Part shown: one piece after another, positions 1,628-64,000 of the stretch
Layout: the number at the start of each line of letters is the position of its first letter
Position numbering within the stretch: position 1 is the first letter of the stretch
NCBI RefSeq assembly: GCF_027595985.1
Contig: NC_073304.1
Location: forward strand, 219,860,000 to 219,923,999
DNA length: 64,000 nt
Origin: Sorex araneus
Taxonomy: Eukaryota > Chordata > Mammalia > Eulipotyphla > Soricidae
Reading direction: 5' to 3'
Made by a program: the position numbers and the translations under genes
The notes under the pieces: generated by a model
What the model saw: the letters and a program-made list of their open reading frames with translations, nothing else
Database searches by the model: none
What the model was told of the DNA's origin: nothing

Positions 1628-2384
1628 TAAGGGAGAATTTTTTTTTAACCCCATAATGAGCGTCCTACATTTTAGGCTTAAAATCTGGGGTCATCGGGAA
1701 AGCTGTGCACCTCTGTCCCAGTGGCAGTTCATGACTGAGTGACTGAGTTCACCATCCTACAGTGGCCAGCATACTGCCAATCAGTAGACTACAGCCTAGC
1801 AATCAGGACCGTCCACCCGAGATTTATTCATGGGCACACTGCTGCTGGAAGAGGCCTGTTACCGTTTTCCTGGAGAGGGCACAACCTTGGTGCTTGGGGT
1901 CCCTTCGTGTGCTGGGGGACATGGGGGCTCCCACATACAAAGCTTGCACTCCTAGCCTTTGAGCACCTTGCCTGGCCCCAGAATCTCTACTGCTATCAGG
2001 CAGTCAGAGCATTATCCTTCAGCTGGTCCACAGTGAGGGGAGTGACCCTTATAGCCCTTTCCCCCAACTTTCTGCTCATCTGACACCCGCTCAATAATAA
2101 ACTCAAACTGCACAGTACAGGCAAACAACAGCTTCACCTTACCACGTAAGCACTCACTTCCTACGGTGGTGGTTTTCACCATAGGATTATGGCCTAAAAA
2201 ACAAAAACTAAAACAAATCAATAGGAGCCTAATATCAACTGCCACTTATACTATATTTCTGGCAATAAGCAATGCTGGTGGATTGTTCTGGGGGTGGGGA
2301 TAAAGGAGAATTTGGGCATTCTTAAATTCCCAAGTATCAAGTAAAATTACTTGGAAATTTAAGAAAAGCTATCCTGGAGAGGTA

Positions 2385-2667
2385 GGGGGAGGGCAGAGCA
2401 TTAAGACAACAGGTAGGGTGCTTGCCTTGCACGTGGCTGACCAAGTTCAACCCCTGGCACCTCATTTAGTCCCTTGAGCCCATCAGGAAAATATATCCTG
2501 GGGCCGGAGAGATAGTGAAGCGGGTAAGGTGCTCGCCTTACAGGAGCTGCACTGGATCAACACTACGCACCCCAGATGGTCCCTTGAGCCCTGCCAGGGG
2601 TGATCCCTGAGCACAGACCCAGGAGTAAATCCTGAGCACTGCTGGGTATAATGCTCCCCTCAGAAAA
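2385..2667 (+). repeat. Two older SOR-type SINEs
   Basis: Sense copies at about 2385-2490 (no tail) and 2502-2667. The second begins GGGGCCGGAGAGATAGTGAA and ends in an A-rich tail; both are diverged in the B box. Confidence 0.8.
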
Positions 2668-2740
2668 AAAGAGGAAAAAAAAAAGGTATCCTTATCTATA
2701 AAGGATATAATCTATATTTCAATCTTCAGAAATGCTGTCT

Positions 2741-2916
2741 TAGGGGCGGAGTAATAGTATAGCGGGTAGGGTGTTTGTCCTGCATGCAGCTGACCCAGGT
2801 TCGATCCCTGGCATCCCATATGGTCCCCTGAGCACTGCCAGGAGTAATTCCTGAGTGCAGAGCCAGGAGTAACCCCTGAGTATCACCGGATGTGACCCAA
2901 AAAAGCAAAAAAGAAA
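2741..2916 (+). mobile_element. SOR-type SINE
   Basis: Full-length sense copy flanked by GAAATGCTGTCT at 2729-2740 and 2917-2928. Confidence 0.93.
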
Positions 2917-4764: not shown

Positions 4765-5195
4765 GCCACACCCTACAGAACTCAGGGTGCACCCAGCAAT
4801 TCTCTGGTGACTGTGTGGAGCTAGAGATCAAACAGACATGTGCCTTAATCCCTGCACTATCTTTTTTGGCTTTATGTTTGGGGGCTACATCCAGCCATGT
4901 TCAAGGGTTACTCCTGTCCCTGTGCTCAAGAATCACTCCTGGCGGTGGTCAGAAGATCATATGGGATGCCGGGAATGGAACCCAGGTCAGCTGCGGGCAG
5001 GGACAGCACCCTACCTGCCGTACAATGGCTCCGGCCCCTCTTCCCAGTCTTTTATTTTGTTTTATTTGTTGGTGGTGGGGGGTACAACTGATGGTGCTCT
5101 GGGCTTCCTCCCAACAGCGCCCAGGGGACCATGCATGCCAGAGACTGGACCTGTGCCTCCCTCATGGAAAGCACACGCTCTAGCCTTAGCCCCAA
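4765..5195 (-). repeat. Three diverged SOR-type SINEs, antisense
   Basis: Copies at about 4765-4862, 4863-5037 and 5070-5195 lie immediately 3' of EZH1 coding exon C; the middle one is the best preserved. Confidence 0.75.
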
Positions 5196-10912: not shown

Positions 10913-11185
10913 ACCCAATCGCGTTTTTTTCTTTAAAGTTTAGTATTTTACTTCTTCTGAAGAAGCAGCTTGAGGGATTGGAATGAGAGTGCAACAAACT
11001 GTGTGCAAAAGGTCTGAAGAGGTAAGGGTGCTTCTCCCCAGCACCACATGGAGCCACTGTGGGCAAGTGGCTCAGGAGCACTGAGCGCTGATCCGAAGTA
11101 GCTCCCAAGCACGAGCCGCTATGGTCCCCAATGAGAGGCAGCAGTATCAAATGGCCTGTTTCCCCCCCTTTAAAATGACATTGCA

Positions 11186-11940
11186 CCAGAGCGGCTTCTT
11201 ACAGACATGCATCTAGACTGTGAGGTATACTACGACTATGTGCCACCCGGGGAGGGATTTTCCCTTTCCAACCTGTTTTTCTGCTCGGAAAATGGTAGCG
11301 GCAGCATTATTCACGTGGCGAGAGCCACCCCCTAAGACTTCCACCCAGAGGTAGGAACTTTGCAATGCTGTAGTTCATAGGCGATCATGGGATGGGGGCG
11401 GTACCGGCACACCCTCTGCCCAGATAAGATCCGGAGCCTCTGCTCGTAAAGACTGATCCAAGAGGTCTTCTAACCCATTTTGGCACCCAGAGCAGCTTCT
11501 TACAGACATGCATCTACAGTGTGAACTGAACTAAAATATCAGAAATCCAAAACAGCGGTTTTGGATTTCTGATATTTTGGCCGCTGTTGCAGCCGTGCGA
11601 GCTCATAGAATCTTCATTCTCAGCAATGAAGAGAAATTATTAAATGATGCCTTTTCAGCAGGCCTGATTGTTGGGGAGAAAATTCCAAACAATAACAGTG
11701 AGTTCTCTATTGAAATATTGAATGTATTCAAAGTATAGAGAATAAAATAAAGACCATTAGCTACTTAGGTGAGGGCTGGAAGGGAGGGGGGTATACTGGG
11801 GTTCTTGGTGGTGGAACATGTGCACTGGTGAAGGGATGAGAGTTCAATCATTGTATGACTGTATGACTGAGACTTAAACCTGAAAGCTCTGTATTTTTTT
11901 TCCTCACGGTGATTCAATATAATAAAATAAAATATAAAAA
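11186..11940 (+). mobile_element. Composite non-autonomous retroelement with L1-like 3' end
   Basis: This 755-bp unit is flanked by AAAATGACATTGCA (11172-11185) and AAAATGACGGTGCA (11941-11954), a target-site duplication with two mismatches. The 5' part has two modules that both begin CAGAGCRGCTTCTTACAGAC (about 11187 and 11487) followed by ATGCATCTA. The middle holds a perfect 21-bp hairpin (11533-11578). The last about 180 bp resembles the 3' end of the local L1 family seen antisense at 63605-64000 (GGTGGTGGAA, ATCATTGTATGACTG, CTCACGGTGATTCA), then an A-rich tail. No coding capacity is seen. It looks like a parasite of L1 machinery with an unrelated 5' region that I do not recognise. Confidence 0.7.
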
Positions 11941-12100
11941 AAAATGACGGTGCAGACAAGAAAGCAGAACTTAACCCACGATCAGACATCGGCCACAATT
12001 AGATCCCGATTAAAATGTCTCACACAAGGACTTTACAAGGACAAAACCTGAACATTTCAGTGGAACAGCTGCACAGACTGGTGTAATGCATGTCTGATTT

Positions 12101-21230: not shown

Positions 21231-22430
21231 GTCTACACAGTCTGGAAGACCTGATTTCACACTTACACCATCAGCAAGTTCCATTTCATTTCACCATTTG
21301 AAACTAACTTGAAAAAACCTTGCTACTGACCTCTCACACCTACCACCCCCCACTCAGACACCTACTGTGTGCTCTCGTATCTTTCTTCTTTTTGATTTGG
21401 GGCCACACCTGGCGATGCTCAAAGCTTACTCCTGGCTCTGGCTCAAGGATCACTCTTGGAGGTGCTCAGGAACCTTTTTTTTTTTCCTTTAATTTTACTG
21501 AATCACTATGAGATAGTTACAAGCTTTCATGTTTGGGTTACAATCACACAATGATCACACACCCATCCCTCTACCAGTGCACATCCCCCACCACCAATAT
21601 CCCCGGTATACCCCCCACCCTTTCCCACCCTCCCACTGCCTCCATGGCAGACAATATTCCCCATACTCTCTCTCTGCTTTTGGGCATTATGGTTTGCAAC
21701 ACAGACACTGAGAGGTCATCATGTTTGGTCCATTATCTACTTTGGGCACACATCTCCCATCCCACTGATTCCTCCAGTCATCATTTTCTTAGTGATCCCT
21801 TCTCTATTCCATCTGCCTTCTCCCCTCCGCTCATGAAGCAGTTTTCCAGCTATGGGGCAATCCTCCTGGCCCTTGTATCTGCTGTCCTTGGGTGTCAGCC
21901 TCATGTGATGTTCTTCTATACTCCACAAATGAGTGTAGTCCTTCTATGTCTGTCCCTCTCTTTCTGACTCATTTCACTTCGCATGATACTCTCCATGTCT
22001 ATCCACTTATAAGCAAATTTCATGACTTCATCTCTCCTTACAGCTGCATAGTATTCCATTGTGTAGATGTACCAAAGTTTCTTTAACCAGTCTTCTGTTC
22101 TAGGGCACTTGGGTTGTTTCCAGATTTTGGCTATTATGAACAGTGCTGCAGTGAACATATAGGTACAGATGTCATTTCTACTGTGCTTTTTTGCATCTTC
22201 AGGATATATTCCCAGAAGTGGTATTGCGGGGCCATATGGAAGCTCAATTTCTAGTTTTTGAAGGACTGTTCATATTGTTTTCCAGAAAGGCTGGACCAGT
22301 CAGCATTCCCACCAACAGTGAAAGAGCATCCCTTTTCCCCTGCATCCATGCCAGCACTGGTTGCTTTTGTTCTTTTAAATGTGTGCCAATCTCTGTGGTG
22401 TGAAATGATATCTCATTTTTTTGTGTTTTT

Positions 22431-22597
22431 TTTTTCTTTTTGGGTCACACCGGTGATGCACAGTGGTCACTCCTGGCTCTGCACTCAGGAATTACCCCTG
22501 GCGGTGCTCAGGGGACCATATGGGATGCTGGGAATTGAACCCGGGTCAGTCGTGTGCAAGGCAAACGCCCTACCCGCTGTGCTATCACTCCAGCCCC
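22431..22597 (-). mobile_element. SOR-type SINE inserted in the L1
   Basis: A near-consensus antisense copy interrupts the L1 ORF2 remnant between TATCTCATT and TCATTGTTG. It is younger than the L1. Confidence 0.92.
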
Positions 22598-23078
22598 TCA
22601 TTGTTGTTTTGATTTGCATCTCCCTGATGACTAGCAATGTGGAGCATTTTTTTTCTTGTGCCTTTTGGCCATTTGTATTTCTTTTTTGAAGAAGCTTCTG
22701 TTCATTTCTTCTCCCAGTTTTTGATGGGGTTGGAGGGTTTTTTCTTACACAATTCTACTAGTGTCTTGTATATCCTGGATATTAATCCCTTATCAGATGG
22801 GTATTGGGTAAATATTCTTTCCCATTCTCTGGGCTCTTTTTGTATTTTGGTCACTATCTTTTTTATTATTAATTTATTCTTTTATTGAAGGTCACTTTCT
22901 TTTGAAGTGCAGAAGCTTCTTAGTTTGATGTAGTCCCATTTGTTTACATTTACTTTCACTTGCGTGGTCAGTGCTGTTTCATCCTTACAGACGCTTTTAG
23001 CTTCAGTGTCATGGAGGGTTCTACCTACATTTTCCTCTATGTATACTTTATAGATTCATGTCTGATATTAAGGTCTTT

Positions 23079-23254
23079 TTTTTTTTTTTGGCTTTTTGGG
23101 TCACACCTGGCGATGCACAGGGGTTACTCCTGGCTCTTCACTCAGGAATTACCCCTGGCTGTGCTCAGGGGACCATATGGGATGCTAGGATTTGAACCCG
23201 GGTCGGCCGCGTGCAAGGCAAACGCCCTGCCCGCTGTGCTATCTCTCCAGCCCC
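23079..23254 (-). mobile_element. SOR-type SINE inserted in the L1
   Basis: This full-length near-consensus antisense copy is flanked by an exact 15-bp duplication GATATTAAGGTCTTT (23064-23078 and 23255-23269). Confidence 0.95.
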
Positions 23255-23845
23255 GATATTAAGGTCTTTAATTCACTTTTATCTGACCTTTGTGCCTGGC
23301 ATTAGACAGAGGTCAGAGTTAATTTTTTTGCAGGTAGCTATCCAGTTTTCCCAGCACCACTTGTTGAAGAGGCTTTCCTTGTTCCACTTCACATTTCTTG
23401 CTCCTTTGTCAAAGATTAAATGTCCATATATTTGGGGGTCTGTGACAGGATATTCACAGACTGTTCCATTGGTCTACAGGTCTGTTTTTATCCCAGTACC
23501 ATGCTGTTTTAATTACTACTGCTTTGTAGTAGAGTTTGAAGTTGGGGAAGGTGACACAACCCATCTTCTTTTTCCCAAGGATTGCTTTAGCTATTCGTGG
23601 GAGTGTATTGTTCCATATGAATTTCAGGAGTGTTTTGTCTATTTATTTGAAAAATGTCATGGGTATCCTGATAGGGACCGCGTTTAATTTGTCCAATACT
23701 TTGGCTGTATTGCTATTCTGATAATGTTAATTCTCCCTATCCATGAGTGCTCAGGAACCTTCTGGAGTCTGGGGACCGAACCCGAGTCAGACACATGCAA
23801 GGCAAGCCTTTTCCCTGAACTACAGCTCTGGCCTCTCTCTGGTAT

Positions 23846-35323: not shown

Positions 35324-35590
35324 AAAATAAAATGGCCACTCAATGCCTCTATTGCAAACCACAACACCCAAAAGGAGAGAGAGAATGAAAGGGAATGCCC
35401 TGCCACAGAGGCAGGATGGGGTGGGGGTGGTGGGAGGGATACTGGGATCACTGGTGGTGGAGAATGGGCACTGGTGGAAGAAAGGTTACTCTATCATTGT
35501 ATGACTGAAATGCAAACACGAAAGTTTGTAAGTATGTAACTGTACCTCAAGGTGATTCACTATTTTAAAAAAAAAAGATTAAAAAAAAAA
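35324..35590 (+). mobile_element. L1 3' end, strongly 5'-truncated
   Basis: The sense L1 3' UTR-like sequence (GGTGGTGGAGAATGGGCACT, ATCATTGTATGACTGAAA, CAAGGTGATTCACT) ends in poly(A). It is flanked by AAGAAGTCTTAAGATCTG (35306-35323) and AAGAAGTCCTAAGATCTG (35591-35608), an 18-bp duplication with one mismatch. Confidence 0.88.
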
Positions 35591-35770
35591 AAGAAGTCCT
35601 AAGATCTGGGATGAGGGCTATAGCACAATGAAAAGCACTTAGCTTGCAAGAGTAAGGCCTGGGTGCAATCCCCAGCACTATCAAAAGAAGGAGTCCTGCT
35701 TCATCAATTATTGGGATCTCAGACAAATCCCTTCTATTTCTCCAGAGAAGAGATAATTCTCTCTCTTTAC

Positions 35771-52914: not shown

Positions 52915-60977
<8,063 letters not shown>

Positions 60978-63475: not shown

Positions 63476-63604
63476 ACCAGGAGCTCTTTCTGTGCTCCCT
63501 GAATTCCTCAGGGTACTGCCCATGATACCTGATACATATTATGTGTTGTTGGAATTGAACATGGGATTCACCACTTAGGGCCTTTTTTTTTAAATTTTCA
63601 GTAT

Positions 63605-64000
63605 TTAAAAAAAAATTATTAGTGAATCACCGTGAGGTACAGTTACAGACTTACAAACTTTCGTGCTTGCGTTTCAGTCATACAATGATCAAGTCATACA
63701 GTGATCCATCCCTCCACCAGTGCCCATTTTCCACCACCAGTGGTCCTAGTATCCCTCCCACCACTCTCACCCCATCCCCTCTACCCCACCCTGCCTCTGT
63801 GTCAGGGCATTCCCTTTTGCTCTCTCTCTCCTTTGGGGTGTTGTGGTTTGCAATAGAGTTATTAAGTGGCCATCATGTTTGGTCTATAGTCTACTTTCAG
63901 CCCGCATCTCCCATCCCGAGCAGGGCCTCCTAGCACCCTTTACTTGGTGGTCCCGTCTCTATATGAGCTGTTAGGGCCTTATTTTTCTCCAGTGCTGTAG
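63605..64000 (-). mobile_element. L1 3' end, antisense, runs off window
   Basis: AGTGAATCACCGTGAGGTAC and the downstream sequence match the same L1 3' region as at 21.5 kb, in antisense, after a T-rich start. It lies in WNK4 intron 11 and continues beyond the window. Confidence 0.85.

Follow-up and report, generated by a model that had tools for sequence, protein, structure and literature searches.

A repeat with tandem 5′ monomers and an L1-derived 3′ end in the shrew genome is very probably a copy of an ORF-less, L1-mobilised composite retroelement family

The 755-nt unit considered here, which lies in a 64,000-nt stretch of the Sorex araneus genome (hereafter the window), is very probably a 5′-truncated copy of a family of composite, ORF-less non-LTR retroelements that L1 would mobilise. 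It belongs to a dispersed family with a joined architecture, phase-locked 5′ ends and target-site duplications, and this family has a younger sister family. The best reading is that it is SVA-like in its dependence on L1 and mouse-L1-like in its front end. The usual plan of a member begins with 0, 1 or 2 monomers of ~322 bp, a partial monomer and a non-repeated middle of ~200 nt, and ends with an L1-derived piece and an A-rich tail; the target-site duplications that flank it measure some 11-22 nt. The window copy has the following parts:

11172 to 11185, + strand: left target-site duplication AAAATGACATTGCA, with TT before it (from the sequence)
11186 to 11434, + strand: first tandem monomer, without about its first 45-55 nt (monomer profile 54-316 = 11183-11444)
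11435 to 11534, + strand: start of the next, partial monomer (monomer profile 4-105 = 11435-11534)
11533 to 11578, + strand: perfect 21-nt hairpin with a 4-nt loop (arms 11533-11553 and 11558-11578)
11535 to 11739, + strand: non-repeated middle, or tether (tether profile 1-220 = 11499-11739)
11735 to 11917, + strand: L1-derived 3′ end (3′-end profile 1-194 = 11735-11938)
11918 to 11940, + strand: A-rich tail (by eye)
11941 to 11954, + strand: right target-site duplication AAAATGACGGTGCA, 12/14 matching (from the sequence)

The initial annotation of this DNA had listed two modules, a hairpin, an L1-like 3′ end of ~180 bp, an A-rich tail and a duplication matching at 12 of 14 positions, and the sequence bears all of these out. 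The CAGAGCRGCTTCTTACAGAC module does occur twice (11186-11232 and 11487-11533; 85% identical, 301 nt apart), but both occurrences are parts of ~322-bp tandem monomers. The first of these monomers is 5′-truncated and has also lost ~21 nt towards its 3′ end, which brings the spacing to 301 nt instead of 322. Position 11186, which had been taken for the 5′ end of the element, is not where members of the family usually begin; their common start, (GA)GACCCTCTGCTC, lies ~45-55 nt further upstream in the monomer. On the reference copy L005, which has three starts of GACCCTCTGCTC spaced 322 nt and monomers beginning at 2, 324 and 646, the 5′ end of the window copy falls at position 368; it begins ~46 nt inside a monomer by this map, and its profile match opens at monomer position 54. 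The window copy is a mildly 5′-truncated member of the family. Its 3′ end is 68.5-72.5% identical to L1 3′ ends elsewhere in the window, and its last ~160 nt (11778-11944) have ~66% identity, by nucleotide match, to the 3′ UTR of the young L1 copy L071, which the 3′-end profile also matches (E 1.1e-13); a likeness of only this order to the young L1 compared counts against the reading and singles out no partner L1 subfamily. Elsewhere in the window there are ordinary L1 remnants at 21517-23747 (-), 35333-35592 (+) and 63582-63960 (-), the first with ORF2 sequence, and open frames at about 53000-57500 whose translations resemble, by eye, a WNK-type protein kinase.

The duplication flanking the window copy, 14 nt long, lies at a site of the L1-endonuclease type, TT/AAAA. 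Among the other 14-mers of the window, only 15 of 63,828 reach 12/14 within 13 offsets of the right copy, but of the 732 that begin with AAAA 12 do so; with this, and with a score for the window copy after discounting A of 6.4, below the threshold of 9, the duplication is only moderately strong when taken alone. An imperfect, A-rich duplication under the threshold leaves some room for the reading that an unknown repeat happens to adjoin an L1 3′ fragment, and it is the other copies in the genome that bear on this.

The genome searched holds 2,405,902,106 bases in 65 contigs. Three similarity searches (whole unit, module alone, middle alone), with 40 candidates scored in each, yielded 68 fetched loci, which reduce to 55 different places when repeats are merged and include the window copy. 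These loci were picked by similarity to the window copy, and the whole-unit and module queries also favour monomer carriers, so the duplication and phase rates given below for the 55 are not family averages. Among the 40 places scored, 22 other than the window copy match 733 nt or more of the 755-nt unit, at 77-87% identity; four of the 22 sit within 0.3 Mb on contig C6 and may be one duplicated insertion. Every one of the 29 loci fetched with the module alone (L010-L038, five of which duplicate places from the whole-unit search) continues downstream into the middle and then the L1 3′ end, although in L018 the middle is interrupted by an insertion. Scored with profiles built from the copies themselves, to which most of the 55 loci contributed, 54 of the 55 have a middle that is directly followed by the L1 3′ end, and 53 have a monomer directly upstream of it. 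A less biased test comes from a genome-wide pattern and its sample. A 29-mer of the middle, allowing up to 3 mismatches, occurs at 5177 + 5273 = 10,450 places (control, 0), and every fifth of the first 100 exact places listed was taken as a systematic sample (n = 20, all on contig C1). All 20 sampled middles pass into the L1 3′ end, much of which is deleted in L092, and 18 have an upstream monomer match, a few of them weak. With an identical join in 54/55 loci and 20/20 samples, a chance meeting of two neighbours is scarcely credible, and we regard it as ruled out; the initial annotation's suggestion of one element, which it had drawn from the shared flanks, is borne out by this junction. Compared with the majority base of each alignment column across the middle and 3′ end, the 55 loci diverge by a median of 5.1%, a figure biased low because the copies were chosen by similarity, and the window copy by 3.3%. 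One locus, L020 at 1890-2760 (-), has its monomer part joined to the middle almost directly, without a partial second monomer.

The 55 loci were also scored for target-site duplications, with A discounted, against a null of 220 draws from other upstream positions. A score of at least 9 was reached in 28/55 loci versus 2/220 null draws, and 27/55, the window copy included, fall below that threshold; many of the duplications listed open with AAAA or TAAA by eye. The initial annotation had looked to many dispersed copies with the same two ends and their own duplications as the mark of a distinct family, and the 22 near full-length places, the 54 joins, the 28 duplications and the 10,450 middles are of that kind. 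Duplications, A-tails and the L1 3′ end together point, if indirectly, to the L1 machinery.

The 5′ ends bear on how such copies might arise. Mapped on L005, 31/55 fall no more than 6 nt from the start of a monomer, where 2.2 would be expected, and 24/55 lie off it; copies with different monomer numbers share the same 5′ phase. Phase-locking of this kind suggests a start site inside each monomer, and a fixed phase with a variable monomer number is what would be expected if transcription began at one point per monomer, although fixed 5′ ends could alternatively reflect stops of reverse transcription at a structure. A YY1-like motif, AANATGGY, occurs in 31/34 monomers versus 21/680 shuffled ones, which shows its presence but not selection for it, as homologous copies share a motif by descent. 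Transcription by RNA polymerase III is disfavoured by TTTT runs inside 34/34 monomers and 49/50 middles, together with the lack of any Rfam family at E up to 1 in the one copy searched (L043, 1000-1900). On the same grounds, no tRNA, 7SL or 5S RNA part being found by Rfam in that copy, we set aside assignment to the Pol III-transcribed SINEs, and likewise an RNA gene as the origin of the 5′ half. A protein-coding 5′ half was also rejected: no Pfam family passed its cut-off in nine open frames, of which eight come from L043 and one from the window, the one match (E 0.0045) falling below the cut-off of that family, and the one open frame compared with the PDB matched nothing there. From these patterns we infer that RNA polymerase II would start at a fixed point within any monomer, giving new copies the same starting phase with differing numbers of monomers. 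The polyadenylated RNA would then be taken up in trans by L1 proteins and reverse transcribed at an L1-endonuclease nick, sometimes with 5′ truncation, as in the window copy.

The hairpin had been presented as a feature of the element, and here the initial annotation stands for the window copy only. The perfect hairpin is there in the sequence, but it is private to this copy, 1 of 55 loci, and as a family feature it is ruled out. Its second arm (11558-11578) is a private inverted duplication lying beside its direct counterpart; at the same site other loci have a variable GC-rich palindrome or nothing, and in L051 the segment is inverted rather than duplicated. The longest inverted repeats at the site measure 21 nt in the window copy, 10 nt in L019, 9 nt in L020 and at most 8 nt in the rest. 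A functional role for the hairpin in the element is very improbable: its perfection across 21 nt and the shorter private inverted repeats nearby in two copies (L019 and L020) would speak for a function, but an arm pair confined to one copy, at a site otherwise so variable, is accounted for by a fold-back template switch, which likely took place in reverse transcription or later replication. The private inverted repeats of L019 and L020 fall where the monomer meets the middle, a point that may be especially prone to fold-back errors.

A second family was recognised through L007 (3100-3740), which matched the middle. Its 40 scored places are 96-100% identical, the query itself included, and a search of the genome for one of its 29-mers, allowing up to 3 mismatches, finds 1728 + 1739 = 3,467 places (control, 0). 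The element is ~1.4 kb long and follows the same plan. In L081, where it spans about 1351-2775, the monomers are ~339 nt apart, the middle is 66% like that of the window family, and a second middle-like piece stands between that middle and the L1 3′ end; the only matches to L1 inside this copy are to the 3′ UTR, and the longest frames overlapping it, of 161 and 158 aa, are both antisense. Of five copies fetched, three (L080, L081 and L084) show differences of 1.3-2.1% where they can be aligned and have duplications by eye, and the other two (L082 and L083) are a broken, duplicated pair. The upstream partial monomers begin at query positions 183-193 in 27/35 cases, and the 5′ ends of this sister family look phase-locked too. 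An older relative with the same plan and diverged monomers lies in L059 (480-1380) and is 69% like L043. In the broken pair (C1, about 449.14 Mb for L082 and 448.96 Mb for L083) the gene is present as two duplicated copies, and in both the sister element stops ~20 nt short of a coding exon for a GIMAP-like GTPase (frame 2368-3126 in L082, the family named by eye), where it may have altered splicing or a promoter. The apparent fusion in L082 and L083 was dismissed as a sign that the GIMAP-like gene is the source of the element; L083 is better read as a 5′-inverted insertion beside a duplicated gene, since the 3′ end of the element lies in inverse orientation at L083 1452-1500.

The origin of the 5′ half was pursued in L1 itself. 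The sequence ahead of ORF1 was examined in three young L1s (L069-L071) and in eight older ones, the latter picked among ORF1 matches that either scored best or contained stops. Nine of these 11 really test the 5′ UTR, as L072 has no 5′ UTR match and L073 matches the last ~85 nt only. The young L1s are 98-99% identical across 5′ UTR and ORF1, and have a GC-rich 5′ UTR and a tether that holds a GC palindrome and TTCTTTGTTACC or TTCTCTGTTACC; the palindrome, of the type CGGCCGC-NNNN-GCGGCCG and altered in L069 and L070, is like one in the middle of the family. In L070, one of the three, a second 5′ UTR unit lies 143 nt from the first. The initial annotation had pointed out that full-length L1s with the same 5′ modules would make the unit simply an L1 with an internal deletion, and no such L1 appears among the 11 upstream regions, nine of them with a recognisable 5′ UTR. 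By blastn, neither monomer nor middle matched the upstream regions of the three young L1s, nor did the family match those of the eight older ones, and profile searches of the sampled L1 5′ UTRs with monomer and middle gave no match. Weak rows of the middle profile occur in L079 (E 0.66) and L074 (E 1.9), upstream of their L1 5′ UTRs. The strong profile matches in L078 do not come from its L1, since an older composite copy (monomer, middle and 3′ end) stands separately just upstream of that old L1 (reverse strand, oriented 45-574).

Some weak likeness to L1 was seen by alignment. The tether of the sister family aligns with a young L1 5′ UTR at z 14.7, largely through the GC palindrome; with the palindrome left out, the sister middle, tried along an entire L1, again scores best against this stretch of the 5′ UTR, with a z of 3.0 that 2/200 shuffles reach. 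In a test chosen post hoc, after an earlier alignment result, an old L1 region in L079 aligned with the middle of L043 (z 5.6) and with that of the older relative in L059 (z 6.2; 0/200 shuffles in each case), but the corresponding part of the young L1 did not (z -1.0 and -1.5). The region concerned (L079, reverse strand, oriented 795-871) aligns weakly and is a possible trace of the source of the middle.

From this perspective, two origins have to be weighed. It is possible, if rather doubtful, that a past L1 subfamily supplied the monomers and middle from its 5′ UTR, or from other parts, and that loss of ORF1 and of most of ORF2 brought these up against the 3′ UTR of the same subfamily, with mobilisation in trans from then on. 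Monomers followed by a tether are the layout described for the mouse L1 5′ UTR (PMC11602158), and UTR replacement is reported for L1s (PMC5753468); the second 5′ UTR unit of L070, the palindrome in the young tether, the weak alignments just given and a 3′ end that matches the L1 3′ UTR by both nucleotide and profile comparison all lean the same way. What weighs against such an origin is the lack of blastn and profile matches in the L1s sampled and the lack of L1 ORF1 beside the middle at 20/20 systematically sampled places. A query joining middle and ORF1 likewise had 40/40 top places matching the middle only, which is weak evidence because the search ranks single matches. An L1 carrying such a 5′ UTR might be extinct or rare. 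The other origin, which we hold with the same reserve, is that the family is the same composite but took its 5′ half from a source other than L1: a cellular promoter or 5′ exon, a satellite or an old LTR, much as SVA acquired its Alu and HERV-K parts. The missing profile match in the sampled L1 5′ UTRs agrees with this, as does the uptake of unrelated parts described for SVA-type composites (PMC5753468), but the weak L1 alignments of the middles speak against it, as do the lack of an Rfam match in one copy, of a credible Pfam match in nine frames and of a PDB match in one frame. No source locus was found, which also counts against this origin, though a single-copy source would hide among more than 10,000 copies.

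Whatever the source, the preferred reading of an L1-mobilised composite family may extend further. We tentatively suggest, at somewhat less than even confidence, a long-lived and self-standing lineage of protein-less L1 parasites that keeps its middle and L1 3′ end and swaps its promoter monomers, with at least three age layers, for which the L059 relative (~69%), the window family and the young 1.4-kb family would be candidates. Promoter replacement between these lineages would mean that the promoter of a hitch-hiker evolves as that of L1 itself does.

A composite, non-autonomous retroelement that uses L1 is of a kind already known from SVA and its relatives. At the level of titles and abstract openings, the open-access papers searched gave no description of such a family, and it may already stand in Repbase or Dfam under some label. 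One account places SVA-like composites, in the passage concerned, only in humans and apes (PMC5753468). The family would be an independent and larger SVA-like case outside the primates, with an active-looking descendant and a mouse-L1-like monomeric front end; if so, it could be used to test directly which features let an RNA be carried by L1, and whether promoter replacement is due to host repression that acts on L1 parasites as well as on L1. It may also put a name to some of the repeats left "unclassified" in shrew genomes, given in one report as 17.41% and 9.63% in two species (PMC11544316).

Several known systems offer points of comparison. RIME of ingi, NARTc of L1Tc and BovA/BDDF of Bov-B are ORF-less elements that are built from LINE ends or share them, and their 5′ end comes from the LINE; they belong to other LINE clades and hosts, and a LINE origin of the 5′ half is here only one possibility, profile searches of the sampled L1 5′ UTRs having given no match. 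HAL1 (half-L1) is a non-autonomous mammalian L1 derivative, as is our family in the broad sense, and is described as encoding only ORF1p (PMC5753468), whereas no ORF1 was found in the present family: 20/20 sampled middles join the L1 3′ end without an ORF1 match, and none of nine frames gave a Pfam family above its cut-off. The mouse L1 5′ UTR is described as having promoter activity and as made up of a variable number of tandem monomers and, after them, a tether that is not monomeric (PMC11602158). By this description of layout, the front end here is alike in its monomers, their variable number, the tether and the YY1-like AANATGGY (a putative site), and differs in that the middle leads to an L1 3′ end and not to ORF1 and ORF2. 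SVA elements have target-site duplications and A-tails, and are made of an Alu-like part, a VNTR with units of 35-50 bp and a HERV-K-derived part. With LAVA, PVA and FVA of hominoids, SVA is characterised as composite, non-autonomous, built of several unrelated modules and L1-dependent (PMC5753468), and SVA-type elements are treated likewise in PMC7353768 and PMC4432496. The shrew family shares with SVA its composite and non-autonomous nature, a tandem-repeat component and, to judge from its sequence, a probable dependence on L1. It is set apart from SVA, by description, in that no Alu, VNTR or HERV-K part was met in it, and in that its repeats are ~322-bp 5′ monomers with phase-locked starts in place of units of 35-50 bp, and its 3′ end comes from L1 itself.
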